From assembly GCF_003264935.1 (NCBI RefSeq), contig NZ_QLOE01000009.1, positions 1 to 56,221 of the forward strand: 56,221 nt of DNA, in the 5' to 3' direction. A model generated the notes under the pieces. The model worked only from the letters and a program-made list of their open reading frames with translations. It did not search any database and had not been told where the DNA came from. Both the position numbers and the translations under genes were made by a program. Positions 41,683-46,996 of the stretch are shown here, piece by piece (position 1 is the first letter of the stretch; the number at the start of each line of letters is the position of its first letter). Origin of the DNA: Methanothermobacter tenebrarum (GTDB lineage: Archaea > Methanobacteriota > Methanobacteria > Methanobacteriales > DSM-23052).

Positions 41683-42819
41683 CTATCTATTTTTTTGATT
41701 CATGTCTTTATACACCTTTAAGAGTTTATCCACAATTTTGTCCCAGACAAACATTTTCTCGACTTTCTTCCGGCCATTTTCCCCAAGATTTCGCTGTAGT
41801 TCTTCATCAAAAAGTAATATTCTTATTTTTTCTTTTAGAGATCCTATATCTAGTGGTTCAACTAAGAAACCGTTTTCACCATCTTCTACAACTTCTATGA
41901 CTCCCCCACTTTTGTATGCGATAACTGGCCTGTAACATGCATTGGCCTCGGCTAGGACCATCCCAAAGCCTTCCCTTGTTGATGGGAGGACTAGTAAGGA
42001 AGATCTTTTCATATGATATATAACATCAGAATATTTAAGATTCATGTAAAATGATACCCTGTCTTCTATTTTATAATCTTTCACAAGTCTTTTTAGCCTA
42101 TTTTTTTCAACACCATCGCCTATGATCTTCAATCTTATAGTGGGGATTTCCTTTTTTAGTTCTTTCACAATCTTTAGGAGGTGGTCAACATGTTTATGGG
42201 GTGCCAGCCTACCAACAAATATTAGACTCCTTGGAATTTTAGATGCCTTTATGGAATCTATCAGTGGTAAGTCAACACCATTATAGATAACCTTGACCCT
42301 TCTAGGATTTATTCCATAGTCTCTTACAAGAGCCTCTCTAGTCATATTACTTACAGTGACTATCTTATCATAGGGTAACTTTAGGAGTATTTTCTCGGCC
42401 AATTTAGCTACTTTTGAAGATTGTATCCACTGATCAGAGAAGGTGGAGCTTACATCATGGATTGTTGCAATCATTGGCGTTCTTTTAATCCTTGAGGCTA
42501 TAAAAGCTGGTAATAACGGGGCATATGTCTGAGCATCAATAATATCATAATCATGGCTTAGAATCCAAAATATAGCAGCTAATATGAAATGCAAAAAATT
42601 TAACAAACTCCTCTTTGGAGGATCAGTTATCACGGGGCCAATATGGTGAACTTTCAAACCTTTTATATCCTCTTTTTCCTTGACACCCTTTATTTTCATG
42701 CATATTACATCAACTTCCCAGCCCCTCTTAACTAGTCTCTTTCCTATTTCGAAATATCGCCTTTCTCCCCCACCTGTGTAATGGGGCGCGAAGAAATCGG
42801 AAACTATCAATATCCTCAT
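41683..42819 (-). CDS. GT4-family glycosyltransferase
   Basis: 378 aa. 'VSDFFAPHYTGGGERRYFEIGKRL' gives the N-terminal GT-B loop (about residues 6-29), 'YNGVDLP' and 'FVGRLAPHKHVDHLL' begin the donor domain, and 'STREGFGMVLAEANACYRPVIAY' is the EX7E nucleotide-sugar site. Cytoplasmic sugar transferase of unknown specificity. First gene of the minus-strand pair with the frameshifted GT4. A TATATATA box at 42838-42850 is only ~26 bases upstream of the ATG, suggesting a leaderless or nearly leaderless transcript. Confidence 0.88.
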   Translation of the reverse strand: MRILIVSDFFAPHYTGGGERRYFEIGKRLVKRGWEVDVICMKIKGVKEKEDIKGLKVHHIGPVITDPPKRSLLNFLHFILAAIFWILSHDYDIIDAQTYAPLLPAFIASRIKRTPMIATIHDVSSTFSDQWIQSSKVAKLAEKILLKLPYDKIVTVSNMTREALVRDYGINPRRVKVIYNGVDLPLIDSIKASKIPRSLIFVGRLAPHKHVDHLLKIVKELKKEIPTIRLKIIGDGVEKNRLKRLVKDYKIEDRVSFYMNLKYSDVIYHMKRSSLLVLPSTREGFGMVLAEANACYRPVIAYKSGGVIEVVEDGENGFLVEPLDIGSLKEKIRILLFDEELQRNLGENGRKKVEKMFVWDKIVDKLLKVYKDMNQKNR

Positions 42820-42837
42820 AGAATATCCTAGATGGAA

Positions 42838-42850
42838 CTATATATATAAT
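42838..42850 (-). promoter_or_regulatory. TATA box of the minus-strand glycosyltransferase pair
   Basis: ATTATATATATAG on the minus strand, centred about 26 bases before the ATG at 42819. At normal archaeal spacing transcription would begin at or next to the start codon. Confidence 0.5.
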
Positions 42851-42875
42851 CTTTTGGATTTTTCCATGAAATTTA

Positions 42876-43700
42876 CTAGAAGGGTGAAAAGACTCCGATG
42901 AAGACCAGCCAGGCTAGTATTGTTTTGGCTGTGAGACTGAGGATAATATAAACCTTCTCACCATATAGGTAATCTTTCCATTTACCAATGCTTTTGTATT
43001 GTAGTAGCATGTTCACAGAGAATGTGTTGAACATTATAAAGTAGATTAGTAGTGCAAGGTAAACGAATGCTGGTGGATTAGTCTCTGTTGATCCGAAGGC
43101 CGCGATAAAGTAGGCTGCTATGACAATCCATGGAGTGAAGCCTGCTATGCACCCGCATATATATGGTGACCAGTCAACCTTTTCCGTGTATTGGTTCAGT
43201 TTCTCCATTAGATAACCGAACATTATCATTGAAGCGTTTAAAACGAAGATCATTACAAGTGACCATAGTTCCCAGACTCCCACAAAGGTTGCGAGTATCA
43301 CTATCATGATTGAACTTGAAAGGGCATACTCGTACCAACGATAGGGATTCATACCCTTCTTAAGATATTTTTCATAATCCTTTGTTTTAAGAAATCCTAT
43401 GACGAAATGTGCAACTGCCGAGATAAGGAGGAAAGAGGCTAATATAACACCAAGATAGCCTATAGTGAACACGACTTGTGGTTCAGGTAAAACTTGAAAT
43501 GATGGTGGATTCAGTGAAATTATCTTGAACTTCAAAGAGAATGTGTATATATCACGTTCCCATGTTAAAAGAAACCCCAGAACAACCATTATGATTCCTT
43601 GGATAAAATGTAACGACCCGGCGATTATGTTCAACCTTCTAAGTCCTTCAAAACTTATAGGGGATCTTTCTATCGCCCTAATCCTTTCAATATTATCCAT
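42876..43700 (-). CDS. Heliorhodopsin (seven-helix retinal protein)
   Basis: 274 aa with seven hydrophobic helices. Diagnostic heliorhodopsin residues are in place: His31 in helix 1 ('AGSLHFIQG'), His98 in helix 2 ('ISAVAHFVIGF'), the counterion Glu124 in helix 3 ('RWYEYALSSS'), 'FGYLMEKLNQ' in helix 5 and Lys259 in helix 7 ('LSLTAKTILAW'), the retinal Schiff-base lysine. The extracytoplasmic loop between helices 1 and 2 is long, as in this family. Heliorhodopsins do not pump ions in known cases and are thought to be sensors or regulators. Divergent from the MnmC-like gene. Upstream sequence is AT-rich with TATA-like elements very near the ATG and a weak ribosome binding site. Confidence 0.9.
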   Translation of the reverse strand: MDNIERIRAIERSPISFEGLRRLNIIAGSLHFIQGIIMVVLGFLLTWERDIYTFSLKFKIISLNPPSFQVLPEPQVVFTIGYLGVILASFLLISAVAHFVIGFLKTKDYEKYLKKGMNPYRWYEYALSSSIMIVILATFVGVWELWSLVMIFVLNASMIMFGYLMEKLNQYTEKVDWSPYICGCIAGFTPWIVIAAYFIAAFGSTETNPPAFVYLALLIYFIMFNTFSVNMLLQYKSIGKWKDYLYGEKVYIILSLTAKTILAWLVFIGVFSPF

Positions 43701-43800
43701 TTAAACCACGGGAATATTAATATAGTATTTAATTGAATAGATATTATCTTTTAGCGGGAAAAAAGAAATTTTGTCATGATGAAAAATTTTACATTGCATC

Positions 43801-43836
43801 TTTTATAGCTTCTATGAGTATACCCCCCCATATGGG
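43801..43836 (+). promoter_or_regulatory. TATA box and CCCATATGGG palindrome before the MnmC-like gene
   Basis: TTTTATAG at 43801-43808 is followed 19 bases later by the perfect palindrome CCCATATGGG (43827-43836), close to where transcription should start. GGTGTGAG just before the ATG at 43860 is the ribosome binding site. The palindrome could be an operator. Confidence 0.4.
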
Positions 43837-43859
43837 ATCCAATTTTTTTGGTGTGAGTC

Positions 43860-45062
43860 ATGTACAAGCCTCTAACAGTAAATGATGAAATCATAGTACT
43901 CATAAAAGAATATTTGGACAGAGAATGTCTTGGAGAAAATGTAAGAGAAGAGGCTTCAAGGAAACTTAAAAGATATTTAATCAGAACAGATGATGGTTCA
44001 TACACACTCCCTTCAAAAAAGCTTTCAGGAAAAAGTGAAACCATGCACACAATACATGGCGCCATAACCGAAGCCTATGAAAAATTCGTTAAACCATCAC
44101 AACTAGAAAACAGGGACAATATTAAAGTTCTTGATATCTGCTCCGGACTTGGATACAACTCAGCAGCCCTCATAGACCATATAAAAGCCGAAAATATCCT
44201 CATACATATGATAGAAGCTTCACCAGAGGTTATATGTGCTGGAGTTCTTGTGCCAAGCCCCATACCAGCTCATAGGATCGTAAAAAGGGCATATGAGGAA
44301 TGGCTCCTTGAGAATGGATTGGCCCGTTTTCAGATGATATCAACCGAGATCCCAGATAACATCTCCATCGAACTTTTCTGTGAAGATGCAAGACAAACAC
44401 TACCTTCACTCCCACAAAAATACTATGATGCCATATTCTTAGATGCGTTCAGCCCACCTAAAAGTCCAGAACTTTACACTTTAGAGTTTATGTTGGAACT
44501 TTCAAGGGTTATAAAAGATGATGGTATCCTCACAACTTATACATCAGCAGCTCCTGTAAGAGCCGCCATGATAGAGGCCGGTTTCCATATATGTGAAGGT
44601 CCCAAGTTCGGCAGAAAGAGGGGCGGCACCATAGCATCCCCAAAACCCATTGGAAAGGGTCTTTCATGGGATGATGAGAGGATGATAGCCCTAACCGATG
44701 TTGGAATACCCTATAGGGATCCTAACCTGGAGGATGGTCGCGAGGAGATAATAAAAAGGCGGAAAAGTGAAAGGAGGATAGTTAGGAACGCCAATATGCT
44801 ACCATCATCATATAGAACACCCATATACCTTGGAAGGGAACTCCCAGAAAAGCATGCTAGGAGGATACTGAAAAACCTTAGAAGGATAGGTATACATGAT
44901 ACTTTCTCAAAGGAAGCGCTCTATATTATCTGTCCACAATACCCAGAATGTATATGTGGATGTAAGAGCTTGAGACTTTCATCATCAAGGGAAAGAATAC
45001 TTGAAATGAGAAACAGACTAGAAAAAGTGAAAAATGGGGAGTGCATATCTTGTTCGAAATAA
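43860..45062 (+). CDS. MnmC-like SAM-dependent methyltransferase (COG4121 family)
   Basis: 400 aa. 'VLDICSGLGYNSAAL' is the SAM-binding motif I. 'YDAIFLDAFSPPKSPELYT' is the MnmC2-like signature. 'TTYTSAAPVRAAMIEAGF' and 'FGRKRGGTIASP' are typical of the C-terminal part of the methyltransferase domain. A Cys-rich tail follows ('CPQYPECICGC', 'CISCSK'), which might bind metal. Bacterial relatives methylate aminomethyl-uridine at the tRNA wobble base. Its overlap with tgtA supports a tRNA modification role. Confidence 0.8.
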   Translation: MYKPLTVNDEIIVLIKEYLDRECLGENVREEASRKLKRYLIRTDDGSYTLPSKKLSGKSETMHTIHGAITEAYEKFVKPSQLENRDNIKVLDICSGLGYNSAALIDHIKAENILIHMIEASPEVICAGVLVPSPIPAHRIVKRAYEEWLLENGLARFQMISTEIPDNISIELFCEDARQTLPSLPQKYYDAIFLDAFSPPKSPELYTLEFMLELSRVIKDDGILTTYTSAAPVRAAMIEAGFHICEGPKFGRKRGGTIASPKPIGKGLSWDDERMIALTDVGIPYRDPNLEDGREEIIKRRKSERRIVRNANMLPSSYRTPIYLGRELPEKHARRILKNLRRIGIHDTFSKEALYIICPQYPECICGCKSLRLSSSRERILEMRNRLEKVKNGECISCSK

Positions 45063-46996
45063 AAGCCAAAGATGGCCTTGCAAGGGCTGGGATATTCACT
45101 ATAGGCGATTATAGGGTTAAAACACCAGCACTCATGCCAGTAATACACCCTAGTAAGATGGTGGTTGATGTTAAATCCTTTGGCGCCGAAATCGTGATAA
45201 CAAACGCTTACATAATCTACAAAAATGAAAAACTAAGAGACATGGCACTCAAAAAGGGCGTTCATAAGCTTATAGGCTTCGATGGTCCCGTTGTAACAGA
45301 CTCTGGTTCTTTTCAATTGGCAGAATATGGTGACATTGACGTCACTAACAAGGAGATCATAGAATTCCAAGAGGAGATCGGAGCCGATATTGGAACATCA
45401 CTTGATATTCCAACACCCCCATATGCCCCCTATAAAAAGGCCAAGGAAGATCTCAAAATAACCTTGGAAAGGGCCAAGGAAGCATTATCCCATCGCGAGA
45501 ATATGATGTTGAATTCAGTTGTCCAAGGTTCCACATATGCAGATCTTAGGAAGTGGTGTGCAAGGGAACTTTCAAGGATGGATTTTGATGTTCACCCTAT
45601 CGGTGCTGTTGTACCCCTCCTTGAATCCTATGATTATAAGAGTCTCGTTGAGGTTGTTATGGCATCTGTAGAGTATCTTCCACCTTCTAGGCCCAGGCAC
45701 CTTATGGGTGCTGGACATCCTATGCTATTTGCACTTGCAGTTTCCATGGGTTGCGACCTATTCGATTCAGCAGCCTATATCCTATATGCTAATGATGACA
45801 GGCTACTAGACCCCTCTGGGACATACAAGTTAGAGGATCTTAGTGAAATGCCATGCTCTTGTAATGTGTGTGTTGAATATACTCCACAAGAATTGCGGAG
45901 CATGGAGGAAAATGGGAGGAGAAATCTTATAGCAGCTCATAATCTTTATGTGAGTTTTGCCGAGATTAGAAGGGTGAGACAGGCTATAAATGAAGGTAGT
46001 TTGATGGAGCTTGTGGATCAAAGGTGCAGAGCCCATCCACGATTATTGGACGCCTACAGAAAAATGCTTAATTACCAAGAATTAATTGAAAAATATGATC
46101 CGGTTTCTAAAAGGTCTGCTTTCTTTTATACTGGCCCGGAATCTCTTCGAAGGGTTGAGGTCTACCGCCATCATAAGAGGTTGAATCGACTCCCCAAAAA
46201 GAAGGGAGTGGCACTTTTATCAGTTTATAATAAGCCTTATTCGAGGCATGTCCCAGTTGATATTGGAGAATTTTTTTCTCCAGTCCCTGTTGAGGTTGAT
46301 GAGTGGCAGTTCATGGTAGTTGACATCCCATTTGGGATAATACCATTGGAGTTGGATGAATTTTATCCTTTCTCACAGAATGAATCTCCATCTATATTAG
46401 ATTTTGAATCAGAAAATTTCATTCGTTCAATTATAAAAAAACTTGAGGAGAATTATAAGACTATAATAGTCAGCAAGGATATTAACGAAAGATTTAACCT
46501 TGGATTCAAGTTTAGGGTTGACCCTCCCTCTTTTAGAGTTTCTGATAAGGATCGTCTAGTTGCCGTGGCAGATTATCAGTTTGGGGAGGGGGCTGGCGAA
46601 GCACTTTTCAAAGGGGATTTGCAGATAATAAAGAGTAAAAAGACGGGGAGAATACGATATATTTACGTGGATGATGAGCTTATCGCGAGTATAAGGACCT
46701 CTGATGGTTTTATAATCCCGTCATGGAAGGGTGCGTCACTCCTACATTCAAGCCTAGATTATCCTAGGTGTAGGGTTGTTGTAGATGAAGAATCAGAACC
46801 CTTTGCTAGGGAGGGGAAAAATATATTTGCAAAGTTCGTTATAGAATGTGATAAAAATATACGTGCAAATGATGAAGTTTTAATAGTTAACGAGGATGAC
46901 GAATTACTAGCCACAGGCAAGTCACTCCTCTGTAGTGAGGAGATCCTAGACTTCAATTATGGCCAGGCTATAAAGACAAGGAGAGGAGGAAGATGA
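45050..46996 (+). CDS. tgtA: Archaeosine tRNA-guanine transglycosylase
   Basis: 648 aa. TIM-barrel catalytic domain: 'TPALMPVIHPSK', 'VVTDSGSFQLAEYG' (nucleophile Asp region), 'HLMGAGHP', zinc site in 'CSCNVC' and later His. The rest has the archaeal C1-C2 domains and a PUA domain ('RVVVDEESEPFAREGKNIFAKFV', about residues 570-592). It puts preQ0 at position 15 of tRNA. The open frame begins at a GTG (45041), but TTG at 45050 has GGGGAGTG at good spacing and gives the usual 'FEIKAKDG' start. It overlaps the MnmC-like gene by 13 bases. Confidence 0.95.
   Translation: MFEIKAKDGLARAGIFTIGDYRVKTPALMPVIHPSKMVVDVKSFGAEIVITNAYIIYKNEKLRDMALKKGVHKLIGFDGPVVTDSGSFQLAEYGDIDVTNKEIIEFQEEIGADIGTSLDIPTPPYAPYKKAKEDLKITLERAKEALSHRENMMLNSVVQGSTYADLRKWCARELSRMDFDVHPIGAVVPLLESYDYKSLVEVVMASVEYLPPSRPRHLMGAGHPMLFALAVSMGCDLFDSAAYILYANDDRLLDPSGTYKLEDLSEMPCSCNVCVEYTPQELRSMEENGRRNLIAAHNLYVSFAEIRRVRQAINEGSLMELVDQRCRAHPRLLDAYRKMLNYQELIEKYDPVSKRSAFFYTGPESLRRVEVYRHHKRLNRLPKKKGVALLSVYNKPYSRHVPVDIGEFFSPVPVEVDEWQFMVVDIPFGIIPLELDEFYPFSQNESPSILDFESENFIRSIIKKLEENYKTIIVSKDINERFNLGFKFRVDPPSFRVSDKDRLVAVADYQFGEGAGEALFKGDLQIIKSKKTGRIRYIYVDDELIASIRTSDGFIIPSWKGASLLHSSLDYPRCRVVVDEESEPFAREGKNIFAKFVIECDKNIRANDEVLIVNEDDELLATGKSLLCSEEILDFNYGQAIKTRRGGR

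Follow-up and report, generated by a model that had tools for sequence, protein, structure and literature searches.

Structures have been solved for TaHeR, a heliorhodopsin from a Thermoplasmatales archaeon (6is6 and 7u55, with the mutant 7clj), and for 48C12 (6su3 and 6uh3), whose source is an actinobacterium. In Trichococcus flocculiformis the gene for the heliorhodopsin TfHeR shares an operon with that of a class II photolyase, and Trichococcus heliorhodopsin has been found to bind class II photolyase, at a KD of about 22 micromolar, and to raise repair about 3-fold (PMC9769723). For the Bathyarchaeota, whose heliorhodopsins (L026-L043) form the group closest to those of methanogens, incomplete retinal synthesis has already been noted by the authors who studied them (PMC7110647). 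We found no literature that treats heliorhodopsin together with Methanothermobacter, and in the literature searched the terms heliorhodopsin and Methanobacteri- meet via a reference list alone; such an absence is no proof that the combination is unreported.

Here we analyse a heliorhodopsin gene that lies in a 56,221-nucleotide stretch of a methanogen genome, the whole of which we call the window. A first-pass annotation of the window had described the product as a seven-helix protein with the full heliorhodopsin signature, in a strictly anaerobic host, and this first observation was right in each detail that could be tested.

Identity of the window protein

The protein matches both heliorhodopsin profiles over its full length, scoring 313.4 bits against PF18761 (E 1.1e-93; Pfam profile cut-off 26.7) and 340.6 bits against the equivalog NF038020 (NCBIfam cut-off 100). 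Over almost its whole length the identity is 45% with TaHeR (6is6) and 41% with 48C12 (6su3), and on account of this identity to solved structures we regard its heliorhodopsin fold as settled. Aligned with the structures, His31, His98, Glu124 and Lys259, the four residues named in the first-pass annotation, match those of the solved proteins, with Lys259 on the retinal lysine column and Glu124 on that of the counterion; all four are invariant in an alignment of 22 heliorhodopsins that reaches Chloroflexota and Bacillota. The column of Glu124 is also the one at which 6is6 and 7clj differ by an E-to-D change. Hydropathy is consistent with a seven-helix protein, as had been claimed, and by charge count alone (17 K+R in inferred cytoplasmic segments vs 3 outside) the distribution of charge agrees with the inverted, N-terminus-in topology. 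Together, profiles and alignments show the protein to be a genuine heliorhodopsin that has retained the retinal-binding signature.

The likeness to each described system has its limits. TaHeR agrees with the window protein at the two His, the Glu and the Lys positions but belongs to another order and falls in the tree well outside the clade of methanogens and Bathyarchaeota, while 48C12, with the same signature residues, sits on a long branch far from that clade. TfHeR, which we compared by its published description, resembles the window protein in having a host that likewise encodes a class II photolyase, yet in the window genome the two genes are far apart rather than in one operon and the photolyase is deleted in part. 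At the numbers of the TfHeR photolyase-binding residues E97, R162 and K227, the Alkalibacterium heliorhodopsin that served as a stand-in for TfHeR has other residues. The Bathyarchaeota proteins are about 61-72% identical to the window protein, and several of their loci have a SOUL neighbour in common with methanogens of the family f3; they differ in belonging to another phylum and in their genomic setting.

Host genome and surroundings of the gene

The window genome (G000) measures 1.47 Mb, is 99.94% complete with 0% contamination, and holds heliorhodopsin in single copy. It encodes methyl-coenzyme M reductase alpha (mcrA), which upholds the claim of a methanogenic host; its order is Methanobacteriales. 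We reject contamination as the source of the gene, given its single copy in a genome of 0% contamination and the presence of orthologues beside the same genes in two other genomes of the genus, G001 and G002; heliorhodopsin in single-contig genomes of the order also counters this explanation.

Table 1. Features of the window around the heliorhodopsin gene
Feature	Position	Strand	Remarks
Glycosyltransferase (GT4)	41683..42819	minus	Downstream of heliorhodopsin on the same strand, 56 bases from it; flanking gene, no functional link shown
Exchanged block	42460..44270 (~1.8 kb)		96-100% identical to G002 (L116); aligned flanks 73-90%
Heliorhodopsin gene, 274 aa	42876..43700	minus	ATG start; His31, His98, Glu124 (counterion position), Lys259 (retinal lysine position)
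MnmC-like methyltransferase (PF05430)	43860..45062	plus	Divergent neighbour; adjacency conserved within the genus only
Archaeal tRNA-guanine transglycosylase (TGT) with PUA domain	45041..46996	plus	Flanking gene

The gene had been placed divergently beside tRNA-modification genes and between a glycan island and translation genes. All of these are present (Table 1), with NAC beyond TGT on one side and glycosyltransferases on the opposite side. The location is, however, specific to the genus and gives no conserved functional context: in the family f2 heliorhodopsin comes after PEP carboxylase, and in f3 SOUL or radical-SAM genes are found there, so we reject a functional link with the tRNA-modification genes.

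Distribution and ancestry

Our search took in 200 relatives, among them the 151 genomes of the order Methanobacteriales. An intact heliorhodopsin is present in 18 of these 151 and one further genome holds a wrecked copy, giving 19 carriers of a match. The intact genes are divided between the window's genus (3 of 4 genomes), f2 (8, which is every f2 genome listed) and f3 (7). Among the f2 carriers G018 is Methanothermobacter marburgensis, its second contig being 100% identical to NC_014409, the plasmid of that strain. The wrecked copy belongs to G003, the remaining genome of the window's genus, where heliorhodopsin is broken by many indels and stops while its neighbours are intact (L019 and L020; contig 153).

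A tree, which the first-pass annotation had proposed as a check, nests the window protein inside the archaeal heliorhodopsins. The methanogen proteins fall in one starred clade together with Candidatus Methanosuratincola and a single Bathyarchaeota bin, and around this clade lie Bathyarchaeota and then Asgard heliorhodopsins. Such a topology would fit acquisition by transfer from a Bathyarchaeia-like donor, after which the gene descended for the most part vertically. Judged by tree and distribution, heliorhodopsin looks to be a long-standing character of some Methanobacteriales, handed down mainly by vertical descent, and not an oddity of the window genome. The window gene is a further member of a known family, in a host that is unexpected but not isolated.

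Constraint and recent exchange

Between G001 and either G000 or G002, dN/dS for heliorhodopsin is 0.08-0.10, similar to the values of neighbour genes, and we therefore conclude that the protein stayed constrained in a genus without carotenoid genes. Between G000 and G002 the picture is that of a more recent event. Silent divergence is 0.02 in heliorhodopsin vs 0.2-0.9 in other genes nearby, and the block given in Table 1, which contains the entire heliorhodopsin gene and the ends of both neighbour genes, is so much closer to G002 than its aligned flanks are that the lineages of G000 and G002 must recently have exchanged it. This homologous exchange is centred on heliorhodopsin.

Polarised with G001 and f2, the changes since the exchange amount to 5 replacement and 0 silent on the G000 branch and to 2 and 3 on that of G002, while two Methanothermobacter genomes at an equal silent distance, used as a comparison pair, differ by 0 replacement and 4 silent changes (Fisher p = 0.008 for G000, 0.07 pooled). 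Y55S, L202F, G237S and I175V (or its neighbourhood), four of the changes in G000, affect positions that are uniform or almost uniform in the other genomes of the order. These counts, based on ten differences, hint at relaxed constraint on heliorhodopsin in the window strain.

Retinal supply

The absence of a retinal route, which had been noted for the window, holds for the whole genome. A search for carotenoid genes, again among the checks proposed, found no phytoene/squalene synthase, CruF, CarR-type lycopene cyclase, Brp/Blh dioxygenase or RPE65-type dioxygenase in the window genome. Phytoene/squalene synthase is absent from all four genomes of the window's genus, including the single-contig G002 (7 of 14 control genomes were matched by the same search), and CruF likewise is missing from these four. 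Neither a CarR-type lycopene cyclase (the one type of cyclase that the search covered) nor Brp/Blh was detected in any of the 151 genomes of the order. The absence of Brp/Blh is meaningful, since in a haloarchaeon with heliorhodopsin that served as positive control this model reaches 234 bits. RPE65-type dioxygenase was lacking from the 19 genomes of the order with an intact or wrecked heliorhodopsin and from 10 others. Retinal made from the order's own carotenoids is therefore unsupported, with no Brp/Blh, RPE65-type or CarR-type enzyme found.

The order is no exception in this respect. Among 45 heliorhodopsin-bearing genomes from outside it, 10 have phytoene/squalene synthase and the haloarchaeon alone has Brp/Blh above cut-off; the retinal gap is common to most of the heliorhodopsin-bearing anaerobes sampled. 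Given a genome without known retinal genes, import, an unrecognised route or a role free of retinal are the options that remain, and the genome-level absences in this way support the three alternatives that had been named at the outset: import, anaerobic synthesis and use of the protein without retinal.

Companion genes and their erosion

Photolyase (PF00875) occurs in 16 of the 151 genomes of the order, all 16 with an intact heliorhodopsin; 13 have phytoene/squalene synthase and 14 have CruF, every one a heliorhodopsin carrier. Wherever photolyase or the synthase occurs among the 151, heliorhodopsin is present and intact. The carriers are confined to few genera, so these co-occurrence counts are confounded by shared ancestry and should be taken as support rather than as proof. 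Two carriers, G038 and G049, both fragmented assemblies, have no photolyase.

The carotenoid genes form an operon of CrtI, phytoene/squalene synthase and a UbiA prenyltransferase (PRK12875 family, LyeJ-like), with CruF nearby, in genomes of the Methanothermobacter family and some Methanobacteriaceae (L105 8229-12096 in G010; also L106, L107, L108, L109, L110 and L111). Its CrtI matches the CrtID equivalog at 680 bits (cut-off 640). Its synthase scores below all NCBIfam cut-offs, so that the product may be squalene. We take this set of CrtI, synthase, UbiA and CruF to be that expected for bacterioruberin-type (C50) carotenoids, which are not known to yield retinal. We found no published description of the operon in these methanogens, and it is absent from all four genomes of the window's genus.

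The photolyase of the window genome matches the class II model TIGR00591. Its gene is on contig 3, that for heliorhodopsin on contig 9, and elsewhere in the order too the two genes are apart, sharing no operon. In 8 of 8 f2 genomes photolyase is 23-42 kb from heliorhodopsin, a proximity that we discount as a single arrangement shared by inheritance, whose probability by chance is near 5%. Outside the order, a photolyase-like gene lies at a distance of 2-4 kb from heliorhodopsin in two loci of Mycoplasmatota/Izimaplasma type (L076 and L082), in line with the published heliorhodopsin-photolyase operons.

Compared with G002, the window strain's photolyase gene (L123 8900-10198) has a 66-base in-frame deletion that removes 22 residues near the flavin. 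The enzyme is whole in G001, G002 and 7 other carriers, and the RMYW motif is present in 9 of 9 relatives checked. By the primers and numbering of PMC5885780, the deleted stretch covers Y380, W381, E387 and W388 of the Methanosarcina mazei enzyme, and so takes two of the three electron-transfer tryptophans of photolyase. In the M. mazei photolyase W381F alone essentially blocked flavin photoreduction (PMC5885780). Because the deletion covers W381 and these other residues, the photolyase of the window strain is probably impaired if the draft assembly is correct at this point; there are two possible explanations for the deletion, decay of the gene or a fault of the assembly. In G003, where heliorhodopsin is wrecked, photolyase is missing altogether. 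We infer that the light-related set is decaying in the window's genus.

SOUL proteins and other recurrent neighbours

In an unbiased clustering of the genes lying up to 4 kb from any of 85 heliorhodopsins, the commonest neighbour was a SOUL haem-binding protein (PF04832), in varied orientations and in two archaeal phyla. It was found at six loci of Methanobacteriaceae (L025, L027, L113, L119, L121 and L122) and six of Bathyarchaeota or Thermoproteota (L029, L034, L039, L040, L043 and L048), and not in the local neighbourhood of the window heliorhodopsin. We found no literature that links SOUL with heliorhodopsin, and SOUL is absent from the ten neighbour groups given in PMC11109279. A second recurrent neighbour, in Bathyarchaeota and Lokiarchaeota (L030, L033, L036, L037, L038 and L051), is a short protein that by eye resembles a pyridoxamine-phosphate-oxidase-like flavoprotein.

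Discussion

Our best reading, which we hold with confidence and doubt in about equal measure, is that heliorhodopsin serves these methanogens as a light-response helper that uses scavenged retinal, with an ancestral tie to class II photolyase, and belongs to a set that is eroding in the window's lineage. The protein would be a light-dependent helper rather than a pump. A retinal-like aldehyde, or retinal itself, would be taken up from outside and form a Schiff base with Lys259; light would then alter the cytoplasmic face, which ancestrally may have aided class II photolyase, by analogy with Trichococcus, and possibly a SOUL haem protein. Loss in the window's genus would have been stepwise, of the carotenoid operon, then of photolyase, then of heliorhodopsin. 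The window copy is intact, and the constraint on it may already have weakened. Against this reading stands the retinal source, which the genome searches did not find; furthermore, should the photolyase of the window strain be non-functional, heliorhodopsin would have outlasted its proposed partner. The two carriers without photolyase, the separation of the two genes in this order and the five replacement changes on the G000 branch also count against it.

The missing retinal source could be taken at face value. In that case the protein would serve to anchor a partner to the membrane or to regulate it, the partner being perhaps a SOUL haem protein, with Lys259 and the pocket kept for structural reasons or for another ligand. 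The lack of any known retinal route in genomes of the order points this way, as do the lack of phytoene synthase and Brp/Blh in most heliorhodopsin-bearing anaerobes outside it, the persistence of constraint in a genus without carotenoid genes and the rank of SOUL genes as the most frequent neighbours of archaeal heliorhodopsins. We nevertheless think such a role unlikely, given that the retinal lysine, the counterion and the two histidines do not vary among 22 diverse sequences, for which retinal binding is the simplest explanation, and that no SOUL gene adjoins the window copy. Alternatively the gene may be intact but no longer useful in the window strain, and heading for the state of the pseudogene that G003 carries between intact neighbours. 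To that pseudogene can be added the want of carotenoid genes in the genus, the deletion in the strain's own photolyase and the excess of replacement changes on the G000 branch relative to the two Methanothermobacter genomes. These changes are few, however, and standing variation can raise short-term replacement rates; the catalytic residues are all intact, dN/dS is low on the longer comparison within the genus, and one could just as well read the recent exchange of the segment as a sign that the gene is still of value. A relic is thus an improbable description of the window gene, if one to be taken seriously.

Retinal might instead be made by a hidden, oxygen-independent route from the host's own carotenoids or other terpenoids. 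The operon of most other carriers would offer a polyene source there, and the retinal-binding residues are conserved; but the operon is of the bacterioruberin type, no CarR-type cyclase was found in the 151 genomes, and the window's genus, the single-contig G002 included, is without even phytoene synthase. We regard this route as very unlikely. The SOUL loci suggest a broader and rather speculative picture. In methanogens and related anaerobic archaea, heliorhodopsins would form a branch that scavenges its chromophore or does without one and has a SOUL haem protein as partner, the rhodopsin fold sensing light or redox state via haem or another pigment and not via retinal of the cell's own making. 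Our confidence in this picture is low. If it were true, the window's genus would represent such a protein under selection without any carotenoid genes.

Heliorhodopsins are widespread and their role is unsettled. Occurrence of a copy in M. marburgensis, a cultured methanogen, makes both the source of retinal and the need for it directly testable under strict anoxia, and from the genome pattern one would expect heliorhodopsin to be connected with class II photolyase and also with SOUL proteins.
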